Shown here: piece by piece, positions 9,162 through 52,464 of the stretch
How the letters are laid out: each line of letters starts with the position of its first letter
Position numbering within the stretch: the first letter of the stretch is position 1
Source: Trachythela sp. YZ-2020
Lineage: Eukaryota; Cnidaria; Anthozoa; Malacalcyonacea; Clavulariidae
DNA length: 64,000 nucleotides
Direction: 5' to 3'
Assembly (NCBI GenBank): GCA_016169945.1
Contig: JADLSH010000257.1
Span: 372,001 to 436,000, forward strand
Notes under the pieces: generated by a model
Database searches by the model: none
Told to the model about the DNA's origin: nothing
What the model saw: only the letters and a program-made list of their open reading frames with translations
Program-made: the position numbers and the translations under genes

Positions 9162-9749
9162 TTAACTTCTAATCACCATCATCATTATTCTCTTCATCGT
9201 TTTCTCCAGTAAAGCGTAACCCTTTAAAAGCTTTCTTATAAGAAACTTTCTCTTATCAACAGCTGCTTCCAAAGCTTCTTCTGGATCAAAGTCATCGCTT
9301 TTCACAAGCGCATCCTTTGTCTTTATTTTGTTTCTATGTACGGGATCTTTCTTTAGTTGTTTCATCCACAGGAGACGTTGCATATAAATATTTTCAAGTT
9401 CCTTCTGGAGTTCAGGCAGAATATTGGTGTAAGCTTTGTCGATAGCAGATTGCTCATCAAGACCGCTGTTTATAAGGATCTCTTTCATTTCCTCAAAAGC
9501 TGTATTACTTCTTTGCTTTGCTTCTTCTATCATTGGTATCCAAGGATCCATTTCTTCTGCTGCTTCAGTTTCGGACTCAGACCCATGAGTTGAAGGTGTC
9601 GAGACATCGTCTTGGAAATCCCTTTCCTGGCTATCCGAATCTGTTTGAGACATGTTTCTTTCTTGTTCGCGTAGTGGACAGTATTCCATTTCGTGTCTGC
9701 GTAGATTGTAACCGCGGCTAAATTGTTTTCCGCAAAATGTGCAGCTCAT
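9162..9749 (-). CDS. C2H2 zinc-finger protein, DPW/DDFDPEEAL family
   Basis: I chose the ATG at 9749, directly before the zinc finger (MSCTFCGKQFSRGYNLRRH). An upstream in-frame ATG at 9800 would add 17 residues. The finger has the form C-x2-C-x12-H with a later Cys. It is followed by an acidic Ser/Glu-rich linker, MDPWIPMIEEA, and a helical region with YMQRLLWMKQLKKDP. The C-terminal block is DDFDPEEALEAAVDKRKFL. The same order is found in the proteins inside the palindromic element at 28-30 kb, so this is a family, probably nucleic-acid binding and probably spread by mobile DNA. It is a single copy here with no terminal repeats found around it. The function is unknown to me. The last residues (RIMMMVIRS) differ from the relatives and may reflect a late frameshift. 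Confidence 0.7.
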   Translation of the reverse strand: MSCTFCGKQFSRGYNLRRHEMEYCPLREQERNMSQTDSDSQERDFQDDVSTPSTHGSESETEAAEEMDPWIPMIEEAKQRSNTAFEEMKEILINSGLDEQSAIDKAYTNILPELQKELENIYMQRLLWMKQLKKDPVHRNKIKTKDALVKSDDFDPEEALEAAVDKRKFLIRKLLKGYALLEKTMKRIMMMVIRS

Positions 9750-9831
9750 TCCGTTACCACTGACAGTCTGGAAATGACTTGCTATTGAGCAGCACGGCAC
9801 TTTTGTGAGCAGACGCTTAAAGCTCTCATAG

Positions 9832-9965
9832 GTCTACTCCGAGAGAACTCCCAGGCAACCCCGACAGGACCCCCGAAGGAACCCCTAGGGAACCCCGAGA
9901 GGACTCCGAGGGAACCCCTAGGGAACCCCTAGGGAACCCCCAGGGAACCCCGAGAGAACCGCTAC
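9832..9965. repeat. GC-rich minisatellite
   Basis: Imperfect units of about 11-20 bp built on GGAACCCC with TAGGG or GAGAG variants, directly upstream (minus strand) of the zinc-finger gene. Confidence 0.8.
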
Positions 9966-28872: not shown

Positions 28873-29325
28873 AGTCTACTACACTCAAGGAATGAAACGA
28901 AAGTCAAGAGTGGCTAGTTATATAGTTGATAAACGCATGGGTCGCTTGTGGGACAATTCAGGCGAACTAGTTTGAACGCGATTCAGACAGTATGCATGTG
29001 CATTCTGTTCATGTTCGCATTTCTGTTCATTGCATCTTCACCATGTTCTCTTCGCATTCTGCTCATGCGCCTTCGCATTAAGGCCCTTTGCGTCCCGGAA
29101 GCCCGATTGATAACAAGGCTGAAGACGCATGAGCAGAGTGCGAAGACGCATGAACAGAATGCGAAGACGCATGAACAGAATGCGAAGACGCATGAACAGA
29201 ATGCACATGCATACTGTCTGAATCAAACTAGTTCGCCTGAATTGTCCCACAAGCGACCCATGCGTTTATCAACTATATAACTAGCCACTCTTGACTTTCG
29301 TTTCATTCCTTGAGTGTAGTAGACT
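28873..29325. promoter_or_regulatory. Palindrome centre, shared 5' region of two divergent C2H2 genes
   Basis: About 450 bp lie between the two ATGs. Inverted halves contain CTTTCGTTTCATTCCTTGAG next to each ATG, TATATAAC about 40 bp further out, and ATGCGAAGACGCATGAACAG repeats. A unique spacer (about 29060-29120) contains CCCGATTGATAACAAGGC. Divergent promoter use is inferred from geometry. Confidence 0.5.
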
Positions 29326-30024
29326 ATGGGTTCTTATCAGTGTGATAGATGTCTAAAACGGTTTTCATCTAATTATAATGTCAGGCGACACAAAGCGAGC
29401 CTTTGCGCATACGCAAACACGCATAGTTTTAACGAAGACTCCGTGATGGAATACGAAAATAAGCCAGTATATGATAAGGTGATCACAGATGATGAAATTC
29501 CCCGAAAGAGATCCCGCTATACAGAATCGGATGAATATGTATCAACCTCATCACATGATGATGAAAGTAGTGAGAATGCCGAAACAGGTGACGATGAAAG
29601 CAGTGAGAACGCCGAGGAAAGCAGTGAGAATGACGAGACAGTTGATGAAGATGAATTGGATCCATGGGGGACACTAATAGGTATCGCACAAGAAAAGTTG
29701 ATTCCGGAGTGCGAAGAATTATTGCAAGAATTCGGAGACAAAGGTTTTAATGAGGAAGATGCTCTAGCGAAAGCTAGCCCACTGTATTTATTGAGACTAC
29801 GAGAAGAACTTCAAAAAGCCTATTTAGAACGAATGGTTTGGATGAGGGCGTTAAAAAGGGATCCAATACAGCGGAAAATAATGAAAACCAGAGATGCACT
29901 CATTGACGACGACGATTTCGATCCTGACGAAGCTTTGGCTGCTGCTATTGAAAAGAGGAAATTTCTTTTTGAAAAGCTGGTGAGTGAAAGACGCTGCTCT
30001 AACAACGACGAAGATTCCAATTGA
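29326..30024 (+). CDS. C2H2 zinc-finger protein (232 aa), intact, DPW/DDFDPDEAL family
   Basis: Starts MGSYQCDRCLKRFSSNYNVRRH: one finger (C-x2-C-x12-H with a downstream Cys) at residues 6-28. It continues with a Lys/Arg patch (PRKRSRY, about 64-70), then an acidic tract of DDESSENAE repeats (about 80-110) and ELDPWGTLIG (about 112). A helical domain carries EDALAKASPLYLLRLREEL and YLERMVWMRALKRDP. The C-terminal block is DDDDFDPDEALAAAIEKRKF, and a short acidic tail ends NNDEDSN. The same architecture is at 9162-9749. It is the only substantial intact gene in the palindrome, so it may be what allows the element to spread, for instance by binding its repeats; that is conjecture. I do not recognise the family from a named database entry. 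A poly-T/A-rich 3' flank follows the stop. Confidence 0.8.
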   Translation: MGSYQCDRCLKRFSSNYNVRRHKASLCAYANTHSFNEDSVMEYENKPVYDKVITDDEIPRKRSRYTESDEYVSTSSHDDESSENAETGDDESSENAEESSENDETVDEDELDPWGTLIGIAQEKLIPECEELLQEFGDKGFNEEDALAKASPLYLLRLREELQKAYLERMVWMRALKRDPIQRKIMKTRDALIDDDDFDPDEALAAAIEKRKFLFEKLVSERRCSNNDEDSN

Positions 30025-33500: not shown

Positions 33501-36175
33501 ATATACTAGGCATATTACTAAGCATGGAACTAAGAATAGTTAACAGACGATAAACTTAGTGAAGACTTAAATTTAATTAGCGAATCGATGTTTTTAACTG
33601 CGCTGTCCAAATCGTTGAAGTCTTGAGAAGCGTAATACGAGGATTTACATTTACTCCAGTTCGTGTTAGCTTTCGGTAGGTGGAGGTTGTTGCATGATCT
33701 TGTGTTGTAGGAATGAATACGGTTGTTAGTTGTTAGTTTGACGTCGAAGTCGATTAGTTTATTAGTACATTTATATATGAAGATACGGCGGTGTTTATAT
33801 CTGCGGGATGCGAGAGGTAACCAGTGAAGGGTTGCGAGAGCTTCGCTTGCTGAAGAAAGAGGAGGAAGATTTAGTATCAATTTAGCTGCTTTATTTTTCA
33901 AGGTTTGCAGAGAGCTCATGAGTCCAGAGTTGTTTTTGTCTCCCCAAATAATATCTGCGTAATCGAATAACGGTAATATCGTAGAAGTATAAAAGGTTAG
34001 TCCTGCATGCAGTGGTAAAAATTATTTGACACGACGGAGCAATCCTAATCTTTGATTGATTTTGCGTATCATGTTCTCAATATGTTGATGCCAAGTAAGG
34101 TTTTCGCTGATGGTGATGTCCAGATATTCTAACGAATATTCTTGATTAATTGACCGATTGTAAATGGAGATGTTGATATTGGAGATTGAGCTCAAGCGCT
34201 GTCTTTCCGCGAATATAATAAACTTTGTCTTGTCATGGCTAAGTGTGAGGAGGTTGTTGTTTAGGTAAATAGAAAGGGATTGCAGATCGGCGTTGAGTTT
34301 TGACTAGAGTTCTGAAATATTGTCCGCAGAGTAGTAAAGGAGTGTATCATCAGCATAAAGTATTGACTTGCAGTGCTTCAGGCATTCAGGTAGGTCGTTA
34401 ATGTAAATAAGGAAAAGAATAGGTCCAAGAATACTTCCCTGCGGAACTCCAACAGCGACTGGCTTGGGTTGAGACATTGAGTTATTAATCATTGTTACTT
34501 GGGTACGGTTTGATAGATATTAGCAGAACCAATCAATGACATATGAGGAAAAGCCAATCGCTTTTAATTTTACTAGTAAAATTGTGTGGTCGACTGTATC
34601 AAATGCTTTCCTTAAGTCTATTAGAAATGGCGCCAGTGATCTTTTTGTTGTCGAGATTGTCAAGTATCTGTTCACTAAAATGTGCCAGAGCAATAGTAGT
34701 GGAGAGTTTGGAGCGAAAGCCGAATTGTTGGGAAGCTATAGTAACGTGTGTTCCTGTAGATAATTGTAAACTTGAAAGTGGACGAGGCTAATACTTTGCT
34801 CAACGTTGGTAGAATGTGATAAGGTCGGTAGTTATTGGATGAAGTTGGGTCGCCAGATTTGGAAATGGGAGTTACTTTACCTTTCTTCCAGATATCAGGA
34901 AATGAACCGTAGTGTAAGGAGAGCTTGAAAATCTTTGTTAAGGTTGGCGCAATTATATTAGCGGAATCTTTGAGTAGTTTGGCACTAATTCCATCTATAC
35001 CAGTAGCTTTGTTAGTTCTTAATTCACTAAGTTCTTGAAATACGGTCATGTCGTCAACGTCTTCAAACTGAAATGAGTGAGATAGTGTAGTGGTAGACTT
35101 TGGTAGTAATGGTTTATATAATTCTTTAATCTTACTCGCAAGCGTGGTTCCTATAGATGAAAAGTAATTGTTCATGATTGTTGCGATGGATTGAGGGTCG
35201 TTTACTGGAACGTTCTCAGATATAATGCAGGTAGGAGAAGTTTTATTTGGATTGCGAGAGGTTACTTCATTAATGACTTTCCAAAGTTCAGCAGGATTAT
35301 CTTTATTATCATGAATAAGATTTTGATAGTAGTTGGATTTACATATCTTAACTTGTTGGTTTATGAAATTCTTAAGTTCGCGGTAGGTATTCCAATGGTA
35401 ATCTGAGTTAGATTTTTGAGCGTGTTTTAGATGGAAATCACGTTCACGCATCAGTTCAAGTACTTCAGAAGTCATCCAAGGTGCTTTAACAGCATTTTTG
35501 GCTCTTTTAGTACGCATTGGGGCGTGCTTGTTGACCGTTTCGGATAATGTATCGCACCATTTGTTTACGTTTTCATTAATGTCATTTAACGAATCAACGA
35601 AATTCCAATAATCTGCTTTTTCTAAATCATTAACGAAATTACCTTTGTTGTAACGCTTATAACAAAGATAATTAATGTCTCGATGACATCCGCCAGATTT
35701 AGGAACTCCTGCTTTCATGGTACAATAAATAAGAGAATGATCGCTGATTGATAAAGGAGAAACACCAACGCGCGGAAGATCGTTCACGAAAATTAAGTCT
35801 ATCGTAGATTGTGTGCTTGCAGTAATTCTAGTTGGTGACGCAATGAGCTGATCAAATGAAAACGCACGGGCGAGTATTTGCAAGCGTGATTTGTCCGTTA
35901 ATCGTTGATTGTAGTCAACATTAAAATCACCCAATAAAATTATTTCTGCATTATCTGCAATTTTAGCAAGATCCTTGCATAGTTCATCAACAAAGCTATT
36001 AATAGGCAAGTCCGATGGTCTATATGCAGAGCAAACAAACAGTGATTTAGTATGAGGTTGTATAATTTCAATCCAACATGTTTCGATGTTTTCGTTACAT
36101 ATATAAATCATTACGAGTTCCGTAGGGTAAGTCTTCTCTAATATAGCTATATATATATATATATATAAGTCAAAT

Positions 36176-36219
36176 CTGCAGACATGCATGTTTCGCCGTT
36201 CAACGGCTCGTCAGTGCAG
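36176..36219 (-). ncRNA. Hammerhead ribozyme 1
   Basis: Read on the minus strand: stem I 5' strand CTGCA, then CTGACGA, stem II GCCG/CGGC with loop TTGAA, then GAAA. Stem III is ACAT/ATGT, the cleavage triplet is GTC, and the stem I 3' strand is TGCAG. All invariant core positions (CUGANGA, GAA, NUH) are present. Stem I is open-ended, so type I. Stem III is very short, which suggests that activity may depend on dimeric (tandem) folding. Confidence 0.85.
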
Positions 36220-36460
36220 CTTGTAACGCAGTCTAGATGCGAGTGACTTCGTATTTATACACCATACTCTTGCCCTCACCAAGCGCATGTGGTACAATAC
36301 TCAGACACATGCGCATCCAGACATGCGTGAAGTGTCTTGGGGCCAGAGTGCTCAAACGACCACAAGGGAAGTGAGCTTTTGCATTATAGCTTATTAGCCA
36401 CCAATTAACCTCACAGAGTGCTCAACAACACAAGTGAAGGAGCATATATATAAGTCAAAT

Positions 36461-36504
36461 CTGCAGACATGCATGTTTCGCCGTTCAACGGCTCGTCAGT
36501 GCAG
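36461..36504 (-). ncRNA. Hammerhead ribozyme 2
   Basis: Identical in core and stems to ribozyme 1, exactly 285 bp away, in the same orientation. Confidence 0.85.
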
Positions 36505-36744
36505 CTTGTAACGCAGTCTAGATGCGAGTGACTTCGTATTTATACACCATACTCTTGCCCTCACCAAGCGCATGTGGTACAATACTCAGACACATGCGCA
36601 TCCAGACATGCGTGAAGTGTCTTGGGGCCAGAGTGCTCAAACGACCACAAGGAAGTGAGCTTTTGCATTATAGCTTATTAGCCACCAATTAACCTCACAG
36701 AGTGCTCAACAACACAAGTGAAGGAGCATATATATAAGTCAAAT

Positions 36745-36788
36745 CTGCAGACATGCATGTTTCGCCGTTCAACGGCTCGTCAGTGCAG
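36745..36788 (-). ncRNA. Hammerhead ribozyme 3
   Basis: Identical in core and stems, 284 bp from ribozyme 2. On the minus strand this is the first copy that would be transcribed. Confidence 0.85.
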
Positions 36789-37603
36789 CTTGTAACGCAG
36801 TCTAGATGCGAGTGACTTCGTATTTATACACCATACTCTTGCCCTCACCAAGCGCATGTGGTACAATACTCAGACACATGCGCATCCAGACATGCGTGAA
36901 GTGTCTTGGGGCCAGAGTGAATAGTTTGGCATGTTAATTCCTGCATTGGTGATAGAAGGTTTTAGCCAAGTTTCAGATAGAGTTCAAACATCAAATGGGT
37001 TTTTGCTGATAAATAGACGAACCGAATCAATCTTAGGAAGTAAACTTCGCACATTCAAATGGCTTACTTTTAGACCCCTTTGTGAACATTCACCGATTTC
37101 AAAATCAGGACCAGGATTACATTCAATGTCACCAGACAAAAAAATAAGGATTGCTGCGATAGAACTGTTTATAAACAATCTTGAGCCGAGCAGAAAGTAC
37201 GTCGAATTATCCAACGATTCATGTTTAACAGTTTTAATACGAGCGTTACCAATGAAAGCTGGTCTTGAGCTAGCGATTCATTCTGATACGAATAAAATTG
37301 AATTAACAGAGGATGGGTGTTTTTCTTGTTGATTCTTGAGTATTGACCCATTAAAAGTCAAATAAATATAGAGAATTAATAAGATATTGCGGTAAGCCCC
37401 GACTGACTGCCATGTGTACGCAATTCCAAAATTATGGTCAGTTAATAAATGTTACTAAGTTTGAGAAAGTGTATGATTATTAATTTCCTAAACACCAGCG
37501 AACACAGAGAAACTCAGTTGAAGTTCTTTAAAAGGCGATTTCAAATTATTTGATTCTTTAATCACGGTCAACCAGTTGTTGAGTTGAAAGTTGTTTTTCA
37601 TAA

Positions 37604-39066: not shown

Positions 39067-39087
39067 GTATTATATCGTTAAATTTAC

Positions 39088-40605
39088 ACCGTCCGCTCTA
39101 CAGTTTCATATTCACTTTCACATTCACATTCAGATTCACATTCGTGAAAATAGTCAGGTATCTGACGTACAAAATGTGGAATTACTCAGTTGCTTTAGAT
39201 GGAATAGACTTGTTTATAAATTTCATTCTTCTTCAGAATATTACGCATTCAACAAAAGTATTTCGAAGTTATTTGGGCGAAATAGGAAGTCAGGAAAATT
39301 CGCAGAACCTACGCGACCGAGACGTAAATTCATGCTACGCCATATTGTCGCAAGCTATCGGCTAAAATATTTTTCGCTATATCTCGTAAGATACGCATTG
39401 TAGCTCCTCCATACCGAAATTCATTCTTTATTACAATATAATGAATTATATGAAGCAAACTTAGCCTCAAAAATCTTTGCCGTTTTGTCGGGAAAAATCG
39501 CAAATCGCAGCGCATGAGAAACGGCTTTTGTAACCTGAAGCGAATGATAACAACACAATCGAGAAAGTAAACGCTTCTCACGGGGCACGCGTTTGGGTTG
39601 GAGTATAGTCATCGAAATTCATTCATCTACAACTATCATAAAATGATGTGATGTACTTTTTATCTTCAAACAACTTGCTGTTTCAGCTGCAAAAATCGCA
39701 AAACACAACTATTGCTTGAAGTCAAAAATCCGGGTGGGATTTCACCTTTTCTAAATGTCCGTTTAGTCTGAATGTAAATACAATTTTCTTTGTTTTCGGT
39801 AGAATTCTACCAGCTGATTAAAGATTACGCTCAAGTGTAAATAATTTCAAAACGACCACAATTATTCACTTAGAAAAAGAGGTTGAAATCGTTCTTTGTG
39901 TAGAATGATAGGATTATAAACGCCCCGGAATATTTTGTTTCAAATTCAAATTTCATGCTGTTTCATATTCATTTTCAGATTCGCACTCAAACAGCGTTAG
40001 CCTTGGTAAATCCTTTAATCACTGCAACACTTTTAATGCAATCTTTACCGTAAAGAAATTCATTCTTCTATAGTATTGTGCGCTTCATTCTGCGTGGTTT
40101 TCATTGCGATTCGGCTATTCGTGTTCTCAGGAAAAATCGCAAAATATTGCTCTTTGAGACTGTCTTTGTATATTTTGACATGGCTTCTCAAGCGGTTGTT
40201 CTCGCAATAAACCATATTTTTTATTCTATTAAAGGCGCGTATCCAACTTTTTCAAGCAATTCATCCTTTAATGTGTTGTAACTGATTATATGAAGATATT
40301 TACGAGTTTGTAGCACTTTTTTGTACGTCAGGAAAAATCGCAAAACGCGGCATACGAGACGCTGTTTTGGCAATCTGAAGCGAATGACAACAACACAGTC
40401 GAGAAAGTAAACGCTTCTCACGAGGCACGCGTTTGCCTTGGAGTATTTTCACCGAAATTCATTCATCTACAACTATCATAAAATGATGTGATGTATTTTT
40501 TATCCTCAAACAACTTTCTGTTTCGGCTGGAAAAATCGCAAAAGACAACTAGTGCTTGAGTCAAAAATCCGGATGGGATTTCAACTTTTCCAAATGTCCG
40601 TTTAA
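39088..40605 (+). repeat. Left TIR with five subterminal GAAAAATCGCAAA sites
   Basis: Matches 52455-50970 inverted. The AAAAATCGCAAA word occurs at about 39493, 39691, 40132, 40332 and 40530, spaced about 200, 440, 200 and 200 bp. The TIR is built from a repeat of about 840 bp containing CGAAATTCATTC(A/T)TC. Candidate transposase-binding sites (inference). Confidence 0.85.
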
Positions 40606-41171
40606 TGTTTCTCAATAGTAAATTTCTATTGGCTAAGCCCACCAAATCGGAAGTAAACTGTCATCAAATGCGGCACGTGTGGCGGCCTTTAGCAACTCTA
40701 ATGTTATTGTTTTCTGCAGCGCATTGAAAATCGCAGTTTTCTCTGTTTCGCGAACGTCTCTCGAGTCGCGCACGCTTTCTTGTGCGTCCTTCTCACGCGC
40801 GCGTTTACCGCCTGCGCGCTTGAAATATTGTGCAATATCTTTACAGGCGCGGCGCATTACGAAATTGCGCGGAGAATTTGCGCGTCCTGACGCGCATTTT
40901 GTCCGAAATTGCACAACCTAGATCTAGTTTGCGCAATACAAACTTTCCAGTCTGGTCGCCATCAGACAGACGAAGAAAAACAGTAAATTAAAGTTTTAAA
41001 ATCAAAACATGTGTGTTTATGTGATGGGAGGAGTTGTAACGATTTAAAGGCGTGGTGATTGTGTAAATTTCTGGAGCTTGTTAAAACTTCGTACATTTAT
41101 TATTTTCACTAAAAAGCCTATAAATCAAAATTTGTTCACTTGTAAATAATAAATAGTGTATATACTAAATC
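40606..41171 (+). promoter_or_regulatory. 5' region of the transposase gene
   Basis: About 570 bp between the left TIR and the first ATG. It has a CpG-rich block at 40670-40920, rich in GCGC and CGCGC words, unlike the AT-rich surroundings. AT-rich sequence with TAAATAATAAATAGTG precedes the ATG. A promoter role is inferred. Confidence 0.4.
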
Positions 41172-42308
41172 ATGGCACACTGGCACAGGATCGTTTTCCG
41201 AAATAGTCGGTTACGTCAGCGTTTAGTGTGCTCGAAATCTGAATGTTTTCGGCGACGTCGATCTCGATGTCCATCAGGCAGAAAAAGTGTAAAGAATCGG
41301 AAATTAGTTAGAACACGAGTGTTCTTGCGGAGATTGGAGGACGACATACTACGTAAATGGAGCGAGAGATGGGGAACTGGTGGTGCGAAAGATAAAGCGG
41401 TTTTGTTGGGGGGAGGGCGTGGAAGACCAAAAAACCAGGTTACTGAAACAATCGATGTAAACAAGTTTGTTGAAATTGTCGCTGAAAGAATTGCATTAAG
41501 TTTTAAGAGTAAAAAGGATATGTGGCAATCGATCGCACAAGAGTATTATGGAGAAATCCGCGTGGATAAAAAGAAAATAGACAGATTACGAATAATTTGG
41601 AGAGAAAATAGTTACAATGTCCGAGAAAAAACAGCCCAGAGGCAGAGAAAGTCAAGGTGTAGAGAGCAAACGGTTACAAACGACAGTCGCACGCCCGCAA
41701 ATTCATTTCAGAACGTCCCTGCTGCCTCTCGCAGTACAGACGCTGCCCATAATGATGTGTTAAACGAAACTGAGGAAAATGGAGAAAAAATATTGGTGAA
41801 TTACAGATGTAGCTCTAAAACTCATTCTGATAACTGCACATTAACTGAATTCTTTGGAAATGTTTTTGGTCGAGCAGTATCCTATGCTTATAAAGATCAC
41901 ATGTGTGATAGTGATTTTCCTTGTGGCGCGGATTCTGTGGATACTCGTGAATTTCGTTATACTAAAGATAAGAATCTGGATTCAATGTGCAAGCGTCCTA
42001 CCACATCAGCTGAGGAATCTGAATACTCACAACAAAAGAGCGATGCAGATGTCGAAAGACCTACAGGTGATCTTCAAAGCAATGTTGAAAAGCCAGACGA
42101 CTACGTGTACGACGTTGATACAGATCAGTGTCAATGTTACAATTCTTTAAAAGAGGGAAACAAAAAATTTCTCAATACACCACATCTTTTAGCATCTACC
42201 GTCAACGCATTATCAAATAGTAATATACCTTCTTCTGGTATATTTCACGCCGAGTTGGTTCGACCAGTTTCATATGTCAGACTTTCTTCCGAGTGGTTGA
42301 ACATGCCT
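41172..42308 (+). CDS. Transposase gene exon 1: basic N-terminal region (379 codons)
   Basis: The ATG at 41172 starts an Arg-rich segment with a clustered CSKSECFRRRRSRC. A glycine/proline AT-hook-like GGGRGRPK follows at about residues 77-84. A compact region ends with WQSIAQEYYGEIRV and KKIDRLRIIWREN, which looks like a small helical DNA-binding domain. The second half is polar and acidic, with Cys pairs (DTDQCQCYN). The open frame runs to 42407. However, GTAAAA at 42309 is a good donor, and an acceptor at 42449-42450 (TTTCGTATTTAAG) joins in phase 0 to the next frame, so I end the exon at 42308. No known family recognised for the whole; a DNA-binding role fits its place ahead of the catalytic core. 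Confidence 0.7.
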
Positions 42309-42450
42309 GTAAAATCTGGAAAAGATGAAAACGCGCAAAAATCTTTTACAAAAATCTTTTATATCGCATTTTACATTGCAAAAATCTTATACAACATTTT
42401 TTTATGAAATATTAAAGGCTTTTAATCCGTTTTGCTGTTTCGTATTTAAG

Positions 42451-43830
42451 CGTAATTACATCAAAAGGGAGAATTCTCGAAAAGGCGGTTGTGCTTATTG
42501 GCGAGGAACAGTGGCATGTAAGCATCAAGACGTTATTGCTCATCTAACTATCCAAGACCGTGATGAAAATATCCTTAAGATTGAATTCATAGGCGACGTA
42601 AAGCATGACATAACAAAGCCAAAAGCCGCAAAAATGGTAGGAGAGCGACGTGAGACAGCAATTCAAGAATACGAACAAACAAATGCTACGCCATCAAAAT
42701 GCCACAGAGATAAACTTGTGAAACTTTCATCGGAGTCTTTTCAAGCTGGCAATCGTTCTGGGGTTGGTATATCGCATTCCACAATGCCGAAAAACATTCG
42801 TGCTGCGGCAAAAAAGAAAACACAAATCGATAAAAATCTGTTTACAGCTATTTCTTATCTTCAGCAATCGGTAGCACGAGAAGATGAAGAAAATGCTATA
42901 GAAGTGGGACATATGTGGAGAAAGTTGTTCGGTTCTATTCAACACTTCAATTTAACTAATAACATCAATTTAGTGCTCTTCAACGAGGCGTCCGTGAGAC
43001 TTTACCACGAACTTGCCAAGTACGACACTGTTTATATTGACGCCACTGGAAAGTTATTTTCGGACGAAGGCTTGCGTGATCGTGGTCGACTTTTATACTA
43101 TGCCATGGTTATACGACACCCGTATCCAAAATACCCTCCAATTCCTATTGTGGAGTACATTACGAGTTGCCACACTACCGATTCAATTCGCTTAATGTTA
43201 AGGACTTTGAAAGAAAAGGAGAAAGAAGTGTTTCCTAATTCGACTTCCTATACTACACCTGCATTAGTGATGACCGATTTTAGCATGGCTATAATTAACG
43301 CTTGTATAAGGGAGTTCACAAACGAGGCTGTCGAAGATTACTTGACGCGTGGTTATAATATCATCAACGGGGATGCAAGTAAAGAAGACGCTGAAAAAAC
43401 AATCTTTCATGTATGTGCTGCACATATGCTAAAGTTAAACAAATTTCACGCGAAAAAACTGCACGAGAAAGGCAAACCAGAAAGTAGCCAGATTCATATT
43501 GCGATGCGTTTCTTTGGTCGACTGCTGTGCTGTTCAACACTTCAGGAGATGACGAATTTTGTCTCTCTTGCTCATTACATATTTCAAAGTAAATACGTGA
43601 GCCCAACATTGAACAACAAACTTGGCAAATTCTCCGATGCCATTCATAATTTTAAGGACCCAATTGAGATTGATAGTAACGGAGATGATTTTGAAATTGA
43701 AACGCTAGATAATGACGATGCTGAGAGGTTAACAGAAACACTGTCGAGCCTAAACGAAGAGAACGTTTGGATTACTTATTGGAATGAACGATTAGCTGAA
43801 ATGGAAAAAAAACGAAACAAATCATGGTGA
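42451..43830 (+). CDS. Transposase gene exon 2: RNase-H-fold catalytic core
   Basis: After a 142-bp intron the frame opens with NYIKREN and a Cys/His-rich segment (CAYWRGTVACKHQDVIAH). This resembles the FLYWCH/WRKY-GCM-like fingers that often precede Mutator-type cores. The core follows. YIDATG gives the first Asp (43039-43041) and ALVMTDFSMAI the second (43276-43278, 79 residues later). FHVCAAHMLK gives the C-x2-H inserted before the last acidic residue (43414-43425). The final Glu falls in the next frame. The frame ends at TGA 43828-43830, just after an eight-A run (43805-43812). Removing one A would bring it into register with 43847-46645, so a one-base indel separates them. It catalyses DNA strand cutting and transfer at the TIRs. 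Confidence 0.85.
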   Translation, partial: RNYIKRENSRKGGCAYWRGTVACKHQDVIAHLTIQDRDENILKIEFIGDVKHDITKPKAAKMVGERRETAIQEYEQTNATPSKCHRDKLVKLSSESFQAGNRSGVGISHSTMPKNIRAAAKKKTQIDKNLFTAISYLQQSVAREDEENAIEVGHMWRKLFGSIQHFNLTNNINLVLFNEASVRLYHELAKYDTVYIDATGKLFSDEGLRDRGRLLYYAMVIRHPYPKYPPIPIVEYITSCHTTDSIRLMLRTLKEKEKEVFPNSTSYTTPALVMTDFSMAIINACIREFTNEAVEDYLTRGYNIINGDASKEDAEKTIFHVCAAHMLKLNKFHAKKLHEKGKPESSQIHIAMRFFGRLLCCSTLQEMTNFVSLAHYIFQSKYVSPTLNNKLGKFSDAIHNFKDPIEIDSNGDDFEIETLDNDDAERLTETLSSLNEENVWITYWNERLAEMEKKRNKSW

Positions 43831-43846
43831 TCTTAACAAATACTTC

Positions 43847-46645
43847 ATGCCAAAATACTTTGCTTTTGTTTTCAAAAATTATCTACCAAGTTGCGCTTTG
43901 TGGTCACGGCTTCTTTTGGGTGATTTGACGCGATTTGATGACAAATATATTGCAAGAACAGCACTGAATAATTTTAATACTAAACAGCGTAATTATCTTC
44001 ATGACAACAATACAAACGCTCAAGTTGAAGACTTTTTTGGTATAAAGAAGAATTGTTCTTTCAAGGGAAAACGAAACATGCGACTAGATACATTTATTGT
44101 GGAGAATTGGAAAGACAATAAAGGACAACAAAGACAGTTTGTGGATGGCTTGATACAATCGGAGGGGTCAGGTTCTTTAAATACTAAATCAATTGAGAGA
44201 ATGTCACTTATTTGCGGTGATGTTAAAAAATCTACAAAAGAGAACAGTACTTTGCCACTAGGAGAAGACAGCTCTTCTAATGACGAATGTAATGTGATGG
44301 AACCTGTCGAGCAATGGAAAAAATCGTCTCCACAAATAAAGAAGAAAAATAAAAAAGGTAAATATTTATCACCATCACAAACAAAACTTAAGTTCGAACC
44401 GGTGGCAGTGAAAACAACAGTAAACGCACATGCTACCCAAAAGCTCGACTGCAGCAATAAAGAGTTCAAAATATTTGAGCAGAAGATGAGTGCTGACATC
44501 TGCAAAAGAAAAAAGAGTTTCAAGAACGTAAAGAAAGAAGTAAAGACAATATGGAAAGGTTTGACCAATGAAGAAAAGCAAAAATACTCGCCCAGTAATC
44601 CACAGAAATCTGGCAGAAGCAGTACAAAAGAAAACACAGAAGATACCCATATAGGAGGACATTGCATTTGCAGGCAAAATAGAGAAATGAGCAAGACTGT
44701 CAAATGCATTCTTTGTCAAGAAATATTCCATTGTCGTTGTGTCAACTTCTGTCCGGTTTTAGCCAATCTTGAAGCGACAAATTTTGTATGTGCTTCTTGT
44801 GTGAATATTCAGTACGCAGAATTCCTGGAATATGTTTTGGCCAAAGAGGATCCAACAGCTATTGATAATAATGCGATTATGCAAAAACTAAGCAACGAAT
44901 TTAAACTGAAAGAAGTACCTTGTGTTGCAATGTCTATGGATGTCGAAAAGAAGAATGAACATAATCCCACTCACGATCACAAAACGGAGACATTGACAAT
45001 ATTGCAGTCTAGAGGAATTGAGAATAAAAAATCTAACTGTTGGCTAAACAGTATCTTACAATGCCTCTTTGCGAGTCCGTTACGTGGATTAATACACGAG
45101 ATACATAGAAGTTATGCGGGAATATCAATATTACTGGATGGGTTATACTCCTGTTTCCAAGAAATGGCGGAAATTTCAAATAGCAAAAATTATACTTCGT
45201 GTGTTCGGTTTGTAAATGGCCCTCTTCATGTGGCAGCTAGCGTTGGAATGCAGCCACAATTAAATTATCATCAAGATGGAAACGAATTGCTTAATAAGAT
45301 ATTTAACGAGATGTATTCTGAAATAAACGAGGTTCATAAACAACGCTTTACTTCCCTCGTTCAATGGCACATGATCGGTCTAAACAGATGCCTTGCTTCA
45401 GAATGTAATGCAATACGCGGCAGATCATTTCAACCATGGAATTTATTAATTGATATTCCCATACATCGTGAAAGCATCGAACTGAGGTCTCTCATAAGGA
45501 CGTTAACGTTTGGAAGATTGTCCACGGAAGAGGATGATATTTGTCGCAATTGCGATTCGAAACCAGCTTCCCATTACGTTGAGCTCTTTCATAACATCCC
45601 CGATATGTCAATCAATACAATAAATCGTGTTAAGTGGAACGGACACAGCAGAATTAAGATCAGCACACCGGTATCGTGTGGTCAACGAATAAATTTTAGA
45701 TGTACAACAACAACCAATTATGACGAGGATGATCTAATTTATAGTCTATTTGCTGCTGTTTTGCATTATGGTCCTAGTGCTGAGCAGGGACATTTCGTCA
45801 GTTATATATTCCACACAGATCAAACAGCGACGCTTTATGATGACACGATTGTCCAGCAGTGCAATACCCAAGAAATACTTCAATCTCAAGCATTCCTGCA
45901 AAATGTTTATATGTGTTTTTATGCCAAAGGAGATCGTTGGCCCGATTTTCTCAAATGTGAAAATAATTTAGTCAACTACACTGAGAAGAGAAGTGATGTT
46001 CCATGGTATATAAATGAAAATGGTGTTCAACGGGTTGTCAAGATTTGGAATTACCAAAAGAAGGTTGTGTATAACTCTGTTTCTTCATTTGACTTGAATA
46101 CTGTAAAGCCATTAAACTGGTTAAACGGGGATATTATAAGCTCATTTCTCACGAATATATGCCTAGACAGTTGCGATACTGGTGCAGGTGCTCATGCTCA
46201 TGCGTTCAATTCCCACCTCTATGATGCTTTAAAGAATAACTTATCAGGGAACAGACTGGTTAATGCATCGCTAGCTGTTGATCCAAATGGATTTGATATT
46301 TTAATGTTTCCAGTAAATGTTGCAAGCTCTCACTGGTCACTTCTGGTGTTTTATCCGAAGTCTGTGATGTTATGCTATTATGACTCATACCATAACATCG
46401 ACATATCCGCAATCAATTTCTTTGTTGGTTTTATAACAACTTCTTATGAAATACACGGGCATTCCGTTGATCCGCTGGAAAATTTGTTAATTCTTGCTCC
46501 GAACAAAATACGCAAACAAAATGATACCTGTAGCTGCGGAGTTTATGCCTGTATGAATGCGTTTTATTCAATAAATCCACAAGTGCATGTTCATTCTACA
46601 CACGACGTGACAACATACGGTATTGGATTGTTCATCGTCTCTTGA
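43847..46645 (+). CDS. Transposase C-terminus fused to PHD finger, USP deubiquitinase and Ulp1 protease (932 codons)
   Basis: Listed from the first ATG in frame; it is really the continuation of the catalytic ORF. Numbered from here, VEDFFGIKK gives the probable catalytic Glu at 61. Residues about 205-250 (FKIFEQKMSADIC, WKGLTNEEKQKY) look HMG-box-like. A PHD finger C4HC3 runs from 273 to about 318 (CICRQ...CILC..IFHCRC...CASC). The USP domain spans about 390-690: Cys box RGIENKKSNCWLNSILQC with C398, a zinc-ribbon-like C..C pair, and His box VLHYGPSAEQGHFVSY with H649 and D665/D666. The Ulp1/C48 domain spans about 815-930: SHWSLLVF (H829), CYYDSY (D846), Q891 and TCSCGVYAC (C897). All catalytic residues of both proteases are retained. 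Transposases fused to Ulp1 are known, but a deubiquitinase plus a SUMO protease in one is unusual. Likely role: removing ubiquitin or SUMO from transposase or chromatin (inference). Confidence 0.9.
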   Translation: MPKYFAFVFKNYLPSCALWSRLLLGDLTRFDDKYIARTALNNFNTKQRNYLHDNNTNAQVEDFFGIKKNCSFKGKRNMRLDTFIVENWKDNKGQQRQFVDGLIQSEGSGSLNTKSIERMSLICGDVKKSTKENSTLPLGEDSSSNDECNVMEPVEQWKKSSPQIKKKNKKGKYLSPSQTKLKFEPVAVKTTVNAHATQKLDCSNKEFKIFEQKMSADICKRKKSFKNVKKEVKTIWKGLTNEEKQKYSPSNPQKSGRSSTKENTEDTHIGGHCICRQNREMSKTVKCILCQEIFHCRCVNFCPVLANLEATNFVCASCVNIQYAEFLEYVLAKEDPTAIDNNAIMQKLSNEFKLKEVPCVAMSMDVEKKNEHNPTHDHKTETLTILQSRGIENKKSNCWLNSILQCLFASPLRGLIHEIHRSYAGISILLDGLYSCFQEMAEISNSKNYTSCVRFVNGPLHVAASVGMQPQLNYHQDGNELLNKIFNEMYSEINEVHKQRFTSLVQWHMIGLNRCLASECNAIRGRSFQPWNLLIDIPIHRESIELRSLIRTLTFGRLSTEEDDICRNCDSKPASHYVELFHNIPDMSINTINRVKWNGHSRIKISTPVSCGQRINFRCTTTTNYDEDDLIYSLFAAVLHYGPSAEQGHFVSYIFHTDQTATLYDDTIVQQCNTQEILQSQAFLQNVYMCFYAKGDRWPDFLKCENNLVNYTEKRSDVPWYINENGVQRVVKIWNYQKKVVYNSVSSFDLNTVKPLNWLNGDIISSFLTNICLDSCDTGAGAHAHAFNSHLYDALKNNLSGNRLVNASLAVDPNGFDILMFPVNVASSHWSLLVFYPKSVMLCYYDSYHNIDISAINFFVGFITTSYEIHGHSVDPLENLLILAPNKIRKQNDTCSCGVYACMNAFYSINPQVHVHSTHDVTTYGIGLFIVS

Positions 46646-49600
46646 TGTTCAGTGGTGCCAATCGTGTTAAAACGAAAATTAGAAACGTTGTGGGCCAAAT
46701 AAGTTGTGCCCAACTCAGCAAAAAGATAGTTGTAATAGATTTACCAGAGCTTGAAGAATCTGACGTTTCCAAAATATTTTTAAACATCGCGAAAGTTGTT
46801 TACAAACGACGATATTTTTGGAAAATGGCGCAAGGTAAAGAATTTTAAGATGTTGCTCTACTTAGGTATAATTAATATTCCGATGCGCAGTTAAAATGAA
46901 AAATTATATTGGATTATTTATGAATATTTTGTTTTCTTCAATCAACTAGATAAAAGTTGTAAAAAGGACGAGTCTACACCAAGTCAAGAAGCAAGAATTC
47001 CCAATAAAAAGGAACAACAACCTAAAGTATGTTATAAAACGCAATGATATCTGTACATAATAAACATAATAATGTACGATGTATATTTTCACTGTTATAA
47101 TTGCGCTAACATATTTGACATTTCAGAAAAATGTATAATGTAAGATAAAGTACCTTAAACTTAAGGTAGAAATACATCAACTATATTCGGTTTGCATTCC
47201 AAGGGACACAACTGATCAATTAATTTAGGTTTATTACATGGTATCTTATATTTCAAGGTATACGAGGATGAAACAGCCGATACGGGAAGAACATGCAGTG
47301 ATACTGATGATAGAAGTGATTGGTCAGATGACTTCGATGACGCAGAGACTGTAGAACGCACTCGCAAATCTATTAAATCTACTACACTCCCGGTAACGTT
47401 GTTCACGTCAACTATTGGACGCGGAAGCGAAGGGAAATCGCAAGTGGTTTCATTAGTGGACATTGCTGACGCTATGTCTTTCAATAAGGCTGAAACGATT
47501 GAGCCAAGTGGAGTAAGAGACAGCGTACCATCGGAACCAGAAACTGGACTGACGTCAGGTATGTAATATATTTTTATGCTGGGACTCAGCTGCATGTGAA
47601 GGTAAAACGTTTGTAATAAATATGTTAAGTTATTTAAGTTACTAGTTTTGTCTTACTATAAATTATTTGGTAACTGTGAATCTCGGTGAAGAAGCACAAT
47701 GAATGATGGCGTGTAGTACAAAACATGCTATGAGCTATTAACTGTACAGAAGCTTACAACGGTACCAAATATATTTATTCTGCATCGACATATATATATC
47801 GAAAGCACCCAAAAGTAAACTAAATTATCTTGTTCTATACTGTCTTTGTATTTCAATAAATGGTACATCTTCGATCTGACCGAAATTTAAAAGTATTGCA
47901 TATTATTCGATTAGAATAATACCCGAATGAAATTCATGTATGACTATATAGCTAAGCTTTCGAACAGGAAGTTCGGATATCAAGGCGCTATACCTTACAG
48001 ATAGAAACTTAGTTATATAAATAAACGTGATATTTCTCACAAAAAGAAAATAGTTATATTGAAGACCATGCAAACCTACAAGTAACCAATTTTTCATTTA
48101 GTTGTTAGCAAAACTCTTGACGAAGAAATAGAAGACATGCATACACCCGACATCAAGACATTTACTTTACGACCTAGAGAAAATATCAAGGTATCTTGAA
48201 AATAGGGGAAATTTAAATCTAATTATTACATCATTGACGCGGTTTCTGTGTTATTGATCGATAGAGCTTTATTGATATATTTGTCTTTATCTATAGATAA
48301 TTAGTAGAATCATACTACTATTGCAAATGCTGTAATTTGATTGGCTACGCTACTCGCTATGTAATTGTCGATAGATAGCGAGTAGCGAAACAGCAATCTC
48401 CTCGGCGCGATTTTTAACGGATTTATTTCAATAAATTATGAAAAACGTTTTGAAATACTGTTTTCTTGCTGGTTTCTACTAAAACAATTAGATTATTCGC
48501 TCTCGATTTCTATGAGATGACAGTTCATTCGGGCTTCGCCCTCATCAACTATCACCTCATAATCTAATTGTTAATTATTAGTAATCTGTATATTAGTATA
48601 ATTTCTATATGATGCTGTATTTAATATTTCCGCTTTCCTCTCTTTAGACCTCTTTACGCATTACAGCGCGCAGGGTCCATTGTCGCATTTTCTGACTGTA
48701 CTATTATTACTATACTTCTTGACGATATTTCTATATAGTTCTTCTATTTTACTATGCCATTCTTAGGGTGATTAACTTATGTATATTTCTTAACTGATCA
48801 AATGCATTAAAATATATTAACCTTTTTCGTTTTGCAGAGAAAGTATAGGTCGAGTATGTACGAGCTTGGTTCTCCTGCAGATGTGTTCAGTGACAGTGAT
48901 GAGGACGTTGGTAAGAGAAAAGCAGTCAAAACAAGTCACAATCGTCAAATAAAGCGAAGCCACAAGGGCGAATGGAAATATTCTAAAATATCTGCAAATG
49001 TCTGCGATTACGAAACCATACTTGTGAAGAAGCGGAAGCTTTCCACTGGAATTGGATTGTGGCAGATGAACATTTATGATCACGATCAGTCTCGTTGCAT
49101 TAAGAACATTACAACACCTGCGTTAGCATGGAAAAAACTGCCAAAACGTCAAAAGCAGGTACTCGTATTATTTCTCCGTTTTCTATAGCTTAATGTATTT
49201 TCCTTAACTTACATATTTTCCTATAGACGATCAAAGCTGACTATATATCTGGTCCGGCTTTTTTCAAAAATCACAAATACACCCTTTAGATAATTACGTC
49301 ACGAATACTTCCTTGGTCAGCTTTGTTCTGCAAGCTTCGCTCTCGTGAATCAAGACGAAAGCTGTTCGCTCACGATTCATGAGACTGAGGTTCCCATAAT
49401 TATCGAAAAGGTGTATTAAATGAAAATTGTGGCATATCAAATACTAATATATAGTTATGTAATTACTTAGTATTGGAACTCGTTGGCAGATAATGAAAAT
49501 TCTGGTTTCTACCTTCGTTGGAATACATTTTGGGAGGAAAAATTCCCAGACGATTGGCTGCTTTTTATCCGAAAAAAGAAAAGCTCTATTCAGCTTGAAT

Positions 49601-50022
49601 TGCGGGGAGCATTGGAACGGGGAACACAATCGACACCTACATATGTATCGGCGTCATACGTCAATTTTCTTGCATATTACAAGAAATACTGCAAGGATTG
49701 GAAGGAAACCCCACCAGAGAATTATATTGAGGATTATTTTTCGTTGTTGCATAAAGAATGCTTGGTAGAGGTATTAAAAGAAACCAAACTTAATGCTGGA
49801 CATTATCGACCATCCTGGGTTTTTGATCTTATGACGAAACTTCTATTCCGAACAATGGAACAATATCGCCAATCGAAATGTCCCTTAACACTATTTCAAC
49901 TATGTCGAACAATTTTAAATCGAGGAGAAGCACTATATTCACTTCGCTTTTGTTTTGGAAAAATCAATGATCCTGAATTGAGGAGAAAACTATTCCATAC
50001 GCAGCAGGTTAATTCAGATTAA
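46645..50022 (+). CDS. Second transposon gene, six exons, function unknown
   Basis: Proposed exons: 46645-46834, 46950-47026, 47258-47558, 48102-48190, 48838-49158, 49471-50022. Every junction is GT/AG and every phase agrees (1, 0, 1, 0, 0), which is strong evidence for a real gene. Exon 1 has VIDLPELEESDVSKIFLNI. Exon 3 is acidic (DTDDRSDWSDDFDDAE). Exon 5 has a basic segment (KAVKTSHNRQIKRSHKGEWK). Exon 6 is a globular Trp/Tyr-rich domain. The ATG overlaps the TGA of the protease ORF by one base. The Ulp1 domain normally continues a little past that point, so exon 1 may instead be a frameshifted tail of the first gene. The gene ends 390 bp before the right TIR. No family recognised. Likely an accessory factor. 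Confidence 0.65.
48245..48600. repeat. Hairpin repeats in intron 4 of the second gene
   Basis: Two small inverted repeats: GCTACGCTACTCGCTATG with its near-mirror at 48330-48400, and AACAATTAGATTAT with its mirror at 48484-48580, around a GGGCTTCGCCC palindrome. MITE-like. Confidence 0.6.
49268..49425. repeat. MITE-like inverted repeat in intron 5
   Basis: AATACACCCTTTAGATAATTA at the left is mirrored by ATTATCGAAAAGGTGTATT at the right, with a second inner pair around TCGTGAATC. Confidence 0.6.
49471..50022 (+). CDS. Exon 6 of the second gene: 183-codon globular domain
   Basis: Acceptor AATTACTTAG precedes YWNSLADNENSGFYLRW. The domain includes FWEEKFPDDWLLFI, SYVNFLAYYKKYCKDWKE and YRPSWVFDLMTKLLFRTMEQ, and it ends RRKLFHTQQVNSD. 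The many aromatic residues and helical spacing suggest a folded domain, not a chance frame. Stop TAA is at 50020-50022; a GTTAAT at 50008 could be a donor to a missing short exon. I know no match. Confidence 0.65.
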   Translation, partial: YWNSLADNENSGFYLRWNTFWEEKFPDDWLLFIRKKKSSIQLELRGALERGTQSTPTYVSASYVNFLAYYKKYCKDWKETPPENYIEDYFSLLHKECLVEVLKETKLNAGHYRPSWVFDLMTKLLFRTMEQYRQSKCPLTLFQLCRTILNRGEALYSLRFCFGKINDPELRRKLFHTQQVNSD

Positions 50023-50409
50023 AGAAGACAAAGAAAGTGTAACCTTTAGTTTATAAAAAATATATATAGGCGTGTCCCAGATATAAGTACATGCGCATAT
50101 ATCTAGATTCTGATTTTAACATATGTTATATAGCCTTTGTAGGATAGAGAAATGAGATAGACTAAAAGACGATTCGGACGTTCGTTCTTCATCAGTAAAA
50201 GCCTATTTAAGCCTTAGCTTTAGACCTGGCTCAATTTCCATATTATTACACTCCTGATCCCGATCCTAATCCTAATCAAAAGGATTAAAGTTATAGGATT
50301 AAAAGCATAAGGGTTAGTTGGAGCTACTAATTGGGATCAAGGTTGTATTTAGATTAAAGATTTTGGAAACCAGTACGTCCCCTCTATCAGTTTAGTAGAC
50401 TGAAAAAGT

Positions 50410-52455
50410 TTCCCGAAAAAGTGCTTCAAACTCGTAAATATGATCTTCATATAATCAGTTACATAACACTAAAGGATGAATTCCTTGAAAAAGTTCGATA
50501 CGCGCCTTTAATAGCATGAAAAATATGGTTTATTGTGAGAACAACCGCTTGCGAAGCCATGTCAAAACGCACAAAGACAGACTCAAAGAGCAATCTTTTG
50601 CGATTTTTCCTGCGAACACGAATAGCCGAATCGCGATAAAAACCACGCGAAATGAAGCGCACAATAATATAGAAGAATGAATTTCTTTACGGTAAGGGCT
50701 GCTTTAAAAGTGTTGCAGTGATTAAAGGATTTACCAAGACTAACGGTATTGGAGTGCGAATCTGAAAATGAATATGAAACCGCATGAAATTTGAATCTGA
50801 AACAAAATATTCCGGGGGGTTTGTCATCCTATCATTCTACACAAAGAACGATTTCAACCTTTTTTTCTGAGGGAACAATTGGGCTCGTTTTGAAATTACT
50901 TACACTTGAGAATATTCTCTAATCAGCTGGTAGACATTCTGCCGAAAACAACGAAAATTGTGTTTACATTCAGACTAAACGGACATTTGGAAAAGTTGAA
51001 ATCCCATCCGGATTTTTGACTCAAGCACTAGTTGTCTTTTGCGATTTTTCCAGCCGAAACAGAAAGTTGTTTGAGGATAAAAAATACATCACATCATTTT
51101 ATGATAGTTGTAGATGAATGAATTTCGGTGAAAATACTCCAAGGCAAACGCGTGCCTCGTGAGAAGCGTTTACTTTCTCGACTGTGTTGTTGTCATTCGC
51201 TTCAGATTGCCAAAACAGCGTCTCGTATGCCGCGTTTTGCGATTTTTCCTGACGTACAAAAAAGTGCTACAAACTCGTAAATATCTTCATATAATCAGTT
51301 ACAACACATTAAAGGATGAATTGCTTGAAAAAGTTGGATACGCGCCTTTAATAGAATAAAAAATATGGTTTATTGCGAGAACAACCGCTTGAGAAGCCAT
51401 GTCAAAATATACAAAGACAGTCTCAAAGAGCAATATTTTGCGATTTTTCCTGAGAACACGAATAGCCGAATCGCAATGAAAACCACGCAGAATGAAGCGC
51501 ACAATACTATAGAAGAATGAATTTCTTTACGGTAAAGATTGCATTAAAAGTGTTGCAGTGATTAAAGGATTTACCAAGGCTAACGCTGTTTGAGTGCGAA
51601 TCTGAAAATGAATATGAAACAGCATGAAATTTGAATTTGAAACAAAATATTCCGGGGCGTTTATAATCCTATCATTCTACACAAAGAACGATTTCAACCT
51701 CTTTTTCTAAGTGAATAATTGTGGTCGTTTTGAAATTATTTACACTTGAGCGTAATCTTTAATCAGCTGGTAGAATTCTACCGAAAACAAAGAAAATTGT
51801 ATTTACATTCAGACTAAACGGACATTTAGAAAAGGTGAAATCCCACCCGGATTTTTGACTTCAAGCAATAGTTGTGTTTTGCGATTTTTGCAGCTGAAAC
51901 AGCAAGTTGTTTGAAGATAAAAAGTACATCACATCATTTTATGATAGTTGTAGATGAATGAATTTCGATGACTATACTCCAACCCAAACGCGTGCCCCGT
52001 GAGAAGCGTTTACTTTCTCGATTGTGTTGTTATCATTCGCTTCAGGTTACAAAAGCCGTTTCTCATGCGCTGCGATTTGCGAGGCTAAGTTTGCTTCATA
52101 TAATTCATTATATTGTAATAAAGAATGAATTTCGGTATGGAGGAGCTACAATGCGTATCTTACGAGATATAGCGAAAAATATTTTAGCCGATAGCTTGCG
52201 ACAATATGGCGTAGCATGAATTTACGTCTCCGTCGCGTAGGTTCTGCGAATTTTCCTGACTTCCTATTTCGCCCAAATAACTTCGAAATACTTTTGTTGA
52301 ATGCGTAATATTCTGAAGAAGAATGAAATTTATAAACAAGTCTATTCCGTCTAAAGCAACTGAGTAATTCCACATTTTGTACGTCAGATACCTGACTATT
52401 TTCACGAATGTGAATCTGAATGTGAAAGTGAATATGAAACTGTAGAGCGGACGGT
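50410..52455 (-). repeat. Right TIR, with one extra tandem unit
   Basis: Carries the mirrored word TTTGCGATTTTT at about 50597, 51038, 51237, 51438 and 51879, spaced about 441, 199, 201 and 441 bp. The inner segment 50410-50970 is a second, more diverged copy of 51253-51810. About 30 bp present in the left TIR near 39470 are missing near 52080. Confidence 0.85.
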
Positions 52456-52464
52456 TAAATTTAC

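Follow-up and report, generated by a model that had tools for sequence, protein, structure and literature searches.

A Mutator-like transposon of the anthozoan Trachythela with USP and Ulp1 protease domains on its transposase

Introduction

Why would a DNA transposon attach two unlike proteases of the ubiquitin family to its transposase? The question is raised by a locus of Trachythela sp. YZ-2020 (Cnidaria; Anthozoa), where a 64,000-nucleotide stretch of eukaryotic DNA (contig JADLSH010000257.1 of assembly GCA_016169945.1; C231:372001-436000 in our survey; hereafter the window) holds an element whose transposase gene also encodes a PHD-type finger, a deubiquitinase-type domain (USP) and a SUMO-protease-type domain (Ulp1). 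The purpose of such proteases in transposons had been raised by 2010 (PMC2836005), and that of plant elements carrying Ulp1 was still called unknown in 2026 (PMC13317346). A sequence-only reading of the window had identified the four parts and called their combination unusual. We have followed it through the genome (G000; 578 Mb, 396 contigs), in which copies are named here by contig (C), and through protein relatives (P).

Results

Both protease domains lie in frame C, the third of four shifted open frames (A to D; Table 1), and both are matched by their Pfam families: UCH (peptidase C19) at 2.4e-24 over the whole 254-position profile (86.8 bits against a cut-off of 23.9), and Peptidase_C48 at 5.2e-8 (33.4 bits against 20.7). 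The catalytic residues proposed by the sequence-only reading, numbered here with the first codon of frame C (43796) as residue 1 (its own numbers plus 17), are invariant among the rows covering each position in an alignment of the window with 10 relatives: C 9/9, H 11/11 and D 11/11 in USP, where four zinc-ribbon cysteines are conserved too, and H 11/11, D 10/10, Q 6/6 and C 6/6 in Ulp1. Compared as a profile with solved structures, these 11 sequences match SENP1 (2.4e-28; 3.7e-11 with the single window sequence), USP12 (3.4e-17) and USP36 (3.7e-15); the closest solved structures of the Ulp1 domain are SENP1 and SENP2, a likeness that leaves SUMO specificity unfixed. Structure prediction of frame C gave a mean pLDDT of 36 and was unusable. 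Judged from sequence, USP and Ulp1 would be active enzymes on ubiquitin and SUMO.

The sequence-only reading had placed all these domains in one polypeptide. This fails for the window copy, whose gene is interrupted by three frame breaks, and holds for P0001 (1,483 aa) and, in the window's own genome, for C101 (1,838 aa) and C153 (1,509 aa), in which the same domain order runs through one open frame without stops; in C101 and C153 the UCH and C48 matches are above cut-off and the PHD match is below it. The search for further copies that had been proposed thus found them, with the proteases fused to the transposase in open copies and not lying as separate genes. P0021, a metagenome protein of 1,190 aa, has C-x2-H, E, PHD, USP and Ulp1. 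The nearest named relative, P0003 of Paramuricea clavata, bears the source label 'kDa in NOF-FB transposable element' together with a ubiquitinyl-hydrolase name, so that databases already contain such a protein.

Across the genome, 42 of the 94 Peptidase_C48 places listed have a UCH match 193-1,212 bp upstream of them on the same strand, against about 0.02 pairs expected under uniform placement; among the matches listed, no pair has the reverse order, and a single UCH is close by on the other strand. The counts from both searches are minima, and the pair count used 97 of 132 UCH rows. The remaining 52 listed places have no UCH so placed, a likely host SENP at C225 included.

The pair is carried by five related transposase lineages: I (the window and C155, with C108 showing USP and Ulp1 only), II (C101, C153, C273, C35 and C130), III (C198, C129, C44, C110 and C41, with C15 showing a partial core), IV (C82) and V (C390, with C241 and C297 seen from C-x2-H onward). 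Within the genome, complete single frames are shown for C101 and C153 only; in C198, C44, C129, C15, C110, C82, C35, C273, C130 and C390 the gene is split over at least two frames, by introns or breaks. Lineage III matches UCH (1.6e-23), C48 (1.3e-19) and HMG-box families above their cut-offs, and no PHD finger was found between its HMG box and its USP; lineages IV and V match UCH and C48.

Two further features were seen in these lineages. An Ig-like domain stands behind Ulp1 in lineages III-V (L003 1135-3561, L045 791-3484, L039 489-3971 minus strand), above the Pfam cut-off in lineage V (L003) only. In lineage V (C390:15206680-15213500; L003 and L064) a Cys-rich PHD-like segment was also seen by eye at the N-terminus of the transposase frame, and the PHD-type finger may sit at either end of the protein.

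A sixth lineage, separate from these, is a MULE lineage at C30:899745-903905 on the minus strand (L078). One frame of 1,387 aa encodes USP, Ulp1 and then a MULE transposase (8.9e-7; profile PF10551, 29.7 bits against a cut-off of 27.6) and a SWIM-like finger (0.027, below cut-off); the frame holds the second half of USP only, the first half lying in upstream exons. USP and Ulp1 here precede the transposase; the pair thus occurs on two transposase branches, at opposite ends.

The USP tree, which contains no host USP, splits lineages I-II from III-V with support 100/100; the Ulp1 tree gives III-V 100/99 and I-II 92/96, and can place neither lineage VI nor the host SENP. Long co-inheritance of USP and Ulp1 within I-II and within III-V is supported by these trees of aligned domains. 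A single capture for all pairs was also considered and is not shown: the two trees agree with each other on the deep split, but lineage VI and the host SENP are unplaced.

Ratios of nonsynonymous to synonymous change (dN/dS) were obtained by Nei-Gojobori counts, with a Fisher test for USP and Ulp1; C82, where most pairs are saturated at synonymous sites, was set aside, as was the Ulp1 of C41. Between C198 and C44 of lineage III the ratio is 0.17 in the core, 0.16 in the HMG box, 0.23 in USP (p = 2e-9) and 0.41 in Ulp1 (p = 0.0055). Over the lineage it is 0.10-0.49 for USP (15 pairs, six copies) and 0-0.41 for Ulp1 (10 pairs, five copies), pairs that are not independent because the copies fall into two groups. 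As judged from these codon comparisons, both proteases are clearly under purifying selection in lineage III. The Ulp1 of C41 (0.71-1.06) had been considered as a neutral control and was withdrawn: C41 differs little from C198 (99.4% identity, 23 gap positions), and the high ratio is a frame artefact, because short indels are read in the wrong frame.

Other values point less clearly to constraint. The core of C15 (74 codons) has ratios of 0.69-0.87; Ulp1 gives about 1.4 on 6 changes between C306 and C92, and 2.18 on 9 changes between C153 and C130 of family II, where USP gives 0.18. In family I, the window compared with C306, C351, C92 and C111, all with stops, gives 0.40-0.54 for USP and 0.27-0.58 for Ulp1. 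Outside lineage III the codon comparisons are suggestive or mixed. The proteases also diverge faster than the core: between C101 and C153 they are 45% and 44% identical, against 69% for the core.

These ratios bear on whether the protease parts are host gene fragments captured passively, as in Pack-MULEs, and without function for the element. Host fragments are frequent in Mutator-type elements (PMC6431247), the window copy has broken frames, and dN/dS is at least 0.5, on few changes, in some comparisons beyond lineage III. The reading is very improbable all the same: the domain order is common to five related lineages and to a separate one of MULE type, every aligned row that extends to a catalytic residue retains it, and lineage III has the ratios and Fisher values given above.

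A C-x2-H motif between the second D and the E of a DDE core is a mark of the Mutator superfamily, and the transposase has this arrangement. Counting the rows that reach each position in a 17-row transposase alignment, D1 is kept in 15/16, D2 in 17/17, C and H in 15/15 and E in 9/10, which bears out the glutamate of VEDFFGIKK as the third acidic residue. Of the other Pfam families named by the sequence-only reading, PHD stays below cut-off in the window; the MULE profile PF10551 matches neither frames A, B and C (E <= 10) nor P0001 (E <= 1); and FLYWCH went unscored for frame B, where the FLYWCH-like label was given by eye. No integrase-type family, the criterion for Ginger1, is listed for frame B at E <= 10. 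The transposase model gave no match at E <= 0.001 by Foldseek alone, and its VIA match rests on a model of middling quality. Scans of viral and prokaryote contigs for relatives gave no confirmed match.

Between core and proteases lie two accessory segments. HMG-box families exceed their cut-offs in lineage III at the place of the HMG-box-like segment of the window. The PHD-type C4HC3 finger has all eight ligands in the window, P0001, P0002 and P0021, the last ligand being absent from P0003 and from the partial P0023. The PHD profile scores 15.5 bits in the window (0.018; cut-off 24) and exceeds the cut-off solely in P0021 (24.1 against 24.0); it falls below in C101 (23.3), C153 (15.7), P0003 (13.0) and P0011 (11.6), and is unlisted for P0001 in the profile search despite all eight ligands. 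PHD fingers that bind H3K4me3 use a Trp; inspection of the aligned sequences by eye found no such Trp where one would be expected, and because of this we do not assume an H3K4me3-reader role.

The linkers flanking the finger are poorly conserved (30% and 22%, window against P0021), and cleavage would be tolerable there. This recalls viral Ulp1-like proteases: the tail could cut the element's own long polypeptide, which reaches 1,838 aa in C101, into transposase and accessory parts, and a lineage V frame has a weak adenovirus-endoprotease match (0.011, below cut-off). We regard such self-cutting as quite unlikely. Gly-Gly, the motif chosen for the test, is not conserved between the domains of 11 aligned sequences, the GG at 287 of frame C being missing from that place in P0001, P0002 and P0003; and self-cutting accounts for one protease, not for both USP and Ulp1.

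As to the breaks in the window copy, C155, a copy 98% alike, is open at the A/B and B/C joins, and is broken shortly afterwards and again near the catalytic Asp of Ulp1. Programmed frameshifting at an A-run near 43.8 kb was considered and fits less well than private breaks or assembly errors, because C155 reads through both joins and breaks elsewhere. By eye, the C-terminal half of frame A and the transposase form one stretch in P0003 and P0006. The window copy would require an intact relative for mobility. Downstream, a conserved frame of 183 aa, either a second product or the last exon, has a same-placed counterpart in the C101 element (L047 1668-2219; 60% identity, 110/183). It has no Pfam match, a structure search gave only weak ribosomal-protein matches (E >= 0.039), and the candidate splice sites between 46.8 and 49.5 kb were picked out by eye alone.

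The element extends beyond the 41172-46645 first assigned to it: it is a DNA transposon of 13,368 bp (39088-52455) with terminal inverted repeats of about 1.5 kb and an exact 9-bp target-site duplication (Table 1). Its ends, like the frame breaks, the HMG-box-like segment and the conserved downstream frame, had been overlooked. The arms are 97.4% alike over 1,517 columns, with 1,107 bp identical. The motif AAAAATCGCAAA occurs five times per arm and, within the window, is confined to the two arms, each of which also holds parts of an 840-bp direct repeat; these motifs and repeats are likely transposase binding sites. In the C101 element (family II) the arms measure 972 bp and are 99.7% alike, both ends read ACGATGAGCC and the duplication is GTTTTTTCC. 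Duplications of 9 bp at both elements fall within the 8-11 bp of the Mutator superfamily, of which long terminal inverted repeats are also characteristic; in its anatomy the family is Mutator-like and foldback-like, and the window element is likely a Mutator-like cut-and-paste transposon.

Table 1. Positions of the element and its parts in the window
Feature	Position	Strand	Remarks
Left target-site duplication, TAAATTTAC	39079..39087	.	9 bp; exact match to 52456-52464, directly outside repeat ends
Left terminal inverted repeat	39088..40604	+	1,517 bp; five AAAAATCGCAAA copies, part of 840-bp direct repeat
Frame A, N-terminal part of transposase gene	41169..42407	+	first ATG 41172
13-bp tandem repeat	42336..42361	.	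at first frame break (A to B); join open in C155
Frame B, FLYWCH-like C/H-rich segment and transposase core	42313..43830	+	14 relatives, every E <= 3e-44
D1 of core	43039-43041		frame B
D2 of core	43276-43278		frame B
C-x2-H	43414-43425		frame B
Frame C, transposase remainder to Ulp1	43796..46645	+	includes HMG-like segment, PHD-type finger, USP
Third acidic core residue, E78 of frame C (VEDFF)	44027..44029	+	E in 5/5 rows of alignment A3 reaching position
HMG-box-like segment	44516..44590	+	residues 241-265 of frame C; Pfam HMG_box 0.58, below cut-off
PHD-type C4HC3 finger	44663..44800	+	eight ligands
USP domain	45011..45922	+
USP C415	45038-45040	+
USP H666	45791-45793	+
USP D682	45839-45841	+
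Ulp1 domain	46076..46570	+
Ulp1 H846	46331-46333	+
Ulp1 D863	46382-46384	+
Ulp1 Q908	46517-46519	+
Ulp1 C914	46535-46537	+
Frame D, C-terminal continuation	46534..46848	+	past third frame break; matches P0001 C-terminal end by eye
Conserved downstream frame, 183 aa	49471..50022	+	same-placed frame in C101 element
Further partial repeat	50443-50934		beside right arm
Right terminal inverted repeat	50976..52455	-	1,480 bp; counterpart of left arm
Right target-site duplication, TAAATTTAC	52456..52464	.	exact copy of left duplication

A search of the genome with the arms found at least 89 pieces. A long arm pair surrounds C155, and short pairs have no gene match in the protein search (C150, 1,465 bp; C110, 2,356 bp; C376, 4,942 bp). 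Exact 9-bp duplications flank seven of the eight further arm pairs examined, which represent six independent insertions because C332a and C332b have one flank in common; at the C108 arm pair the left end is absent. The short derivatives at C150:1424051-1425515 and C110:3219576-3221931 consist of repeat alone, with 9-bp duplications, and are foldback-like. Two derivative copies at C332:1499365-1505253 and C332:1514501-1521266, about 15 kb apart, agree exactly in the 30 bp flanking them on either side and in their duplication; therefore one likely stems from a larger tandem duplication and not from a second insertion.

These copies decide a further point. A long, domain-rich protein with enzymatic parts might be a host gene domesticated from a transposon, which is exceedingly unlikely here, with intact repeat ends, 9-bp duplications, many copies and the repeat-only derivatives of C150 and C110.

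Elsewhere in the window, a fragment of a non-LTR retrotransposon endonuclease/reverse transcriptase (34675-36210; Exo_endo_phos_2, 6.2e-8) lies near an array of 285-bp direct repeats (36082-36919). Two open frames (9162-9833 and 29323-30024), each with a single C2H2-like finger and with acidic tails alike by eye, are possibly one repeat family.

Discussion

What, then, might the two proteases do? We lean, by a little, towards the view that the tail removes ubiquitin and SUMO at bound DNA, likely protecting the transposase and weakening host silencing. The transposase would locate the repeat ends; the HMG- and PHD-type parts would recruit the tail to chromatin; and USP and Ulp1 would strip ubiquitin and SUMO from the transposase and from neighbouring chromatin or repair proteins at the repeat ends and the target. 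The transposase would then be spared degradation, silencing by the host would be weakened, and transposition would increase. Such stripping would agree with the conservation of both active sites, with purifying selection in lineage III and with the reappearance of the pair in a second branch. SUMO is reported to promote silent chromatin (PMC8131101), and the deubiquitinases of Helitrons have been suggested to let transposition proteins escape the proteasome (PMC9741609).

The same fusion to the transposase would also put the enzymes at the DNA break, and their targets could instead be repair factors: with ubiquitin and SUMO on these factors edited at the breaks of excision and insertion, the joining of ends would be biased towards the element. 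Such a role has been proposed for Ulp1 and OTU in Ginger transposases (PMC2836005). We hold this to be rather unlikely, although our analysis has nothing that distinguishes repair editing from a role in silencing or protein stability. Carrying the stripping of ubiquitin and SUMO further, we suggest tentatively, as a possibility short of probable, that USP and Ulp1 form a dedicated two-enzyme cassette of animal DNA transposons against silencing, gained separately by at least two Mutator branches, at opposite ends of the transposase, and diversifying against host defence.

The closest known elements are Rehavkus and NOF-FB, the former compared here by its description and the latter through a transferred database label. 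Likenesses to and differences from published systems are as follows: (i) Rehavkus, of the Mutator superfamily, shares a 9-bp target-site duplication, a single main gene and a PHD finger with a transposase, whereas its repeats measure 26-400 bp, against 1,517 bp in the window and 972 bp in C101; it is reported from arthropods and annelids only, and the passages describing it mention neither USP nor Ulp1 (PMC6446971). A minisatellite of Rehavkus type before the 3' terminal inverted repeat was not found in the window element, which has only short arrays of 6-13-bp units, located in the repeat ends and the coding part, besides the 840-bp direct repeats of both arms. (ii) FB-NOF is alike in its long, internally repeated inverted repeats, its short repeat-only derivatives and the label carried by P0003, itself a database transfer, and differs in that USP and Ulp1 belong to the present element. 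(iii) Ginger1 of Hydra, also cnidarian, has Ulp1 or OTU at the C-terminus of its transposase, Ginger1-9_HM having Ulp1 and PHD; in contrast, its transposase is Gypsy-integrase-like, and the elements described have one protease each and no USP (PMC2836005). (iv) XP_001314237.1 of Trichomonas vaginalis has a USP-type (peptidase C19) domain on a transposase, but this is of the transposase_11 kind, and no Ulp1 or PHD is named in its account (PMC2836005). (v) Helitrons and Helentrons also combine two unlike ubiquitin proteases, VTD and OTU (121 VTD Helitrons also have OTU), on a rolling-circle Rep-helicase and not a DDE transposase, with no SUMO protease named in that account (PMC9741609). (vi) The plant MULEs Kaonashi and KIU have a conserved Ulp1 in Mutator-type elements, but in a separate gene of the element, and their description names no USP (PMC13317346). 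Transposons with Ulp1, OTU or USP are thus already in print; in the open-licence papers searched we found no DDE transposase with both USP and Ulp1, so that, as far as these reach, the combination is unusual, as the sequence-only reading had supposed, and apparently new.

In this genome two unlike proteases keep one order and recur on more than one transposon branch, and in at least one lineage they are under selection. The question of what such proteases are for becomes testable with them, through intact open frames, separable active sites and a conserved repeat motif. If the tail does clear SUMO or ubiquitin, this would be a DNA transposon that counter-attacks the modification systems used by host silencing.

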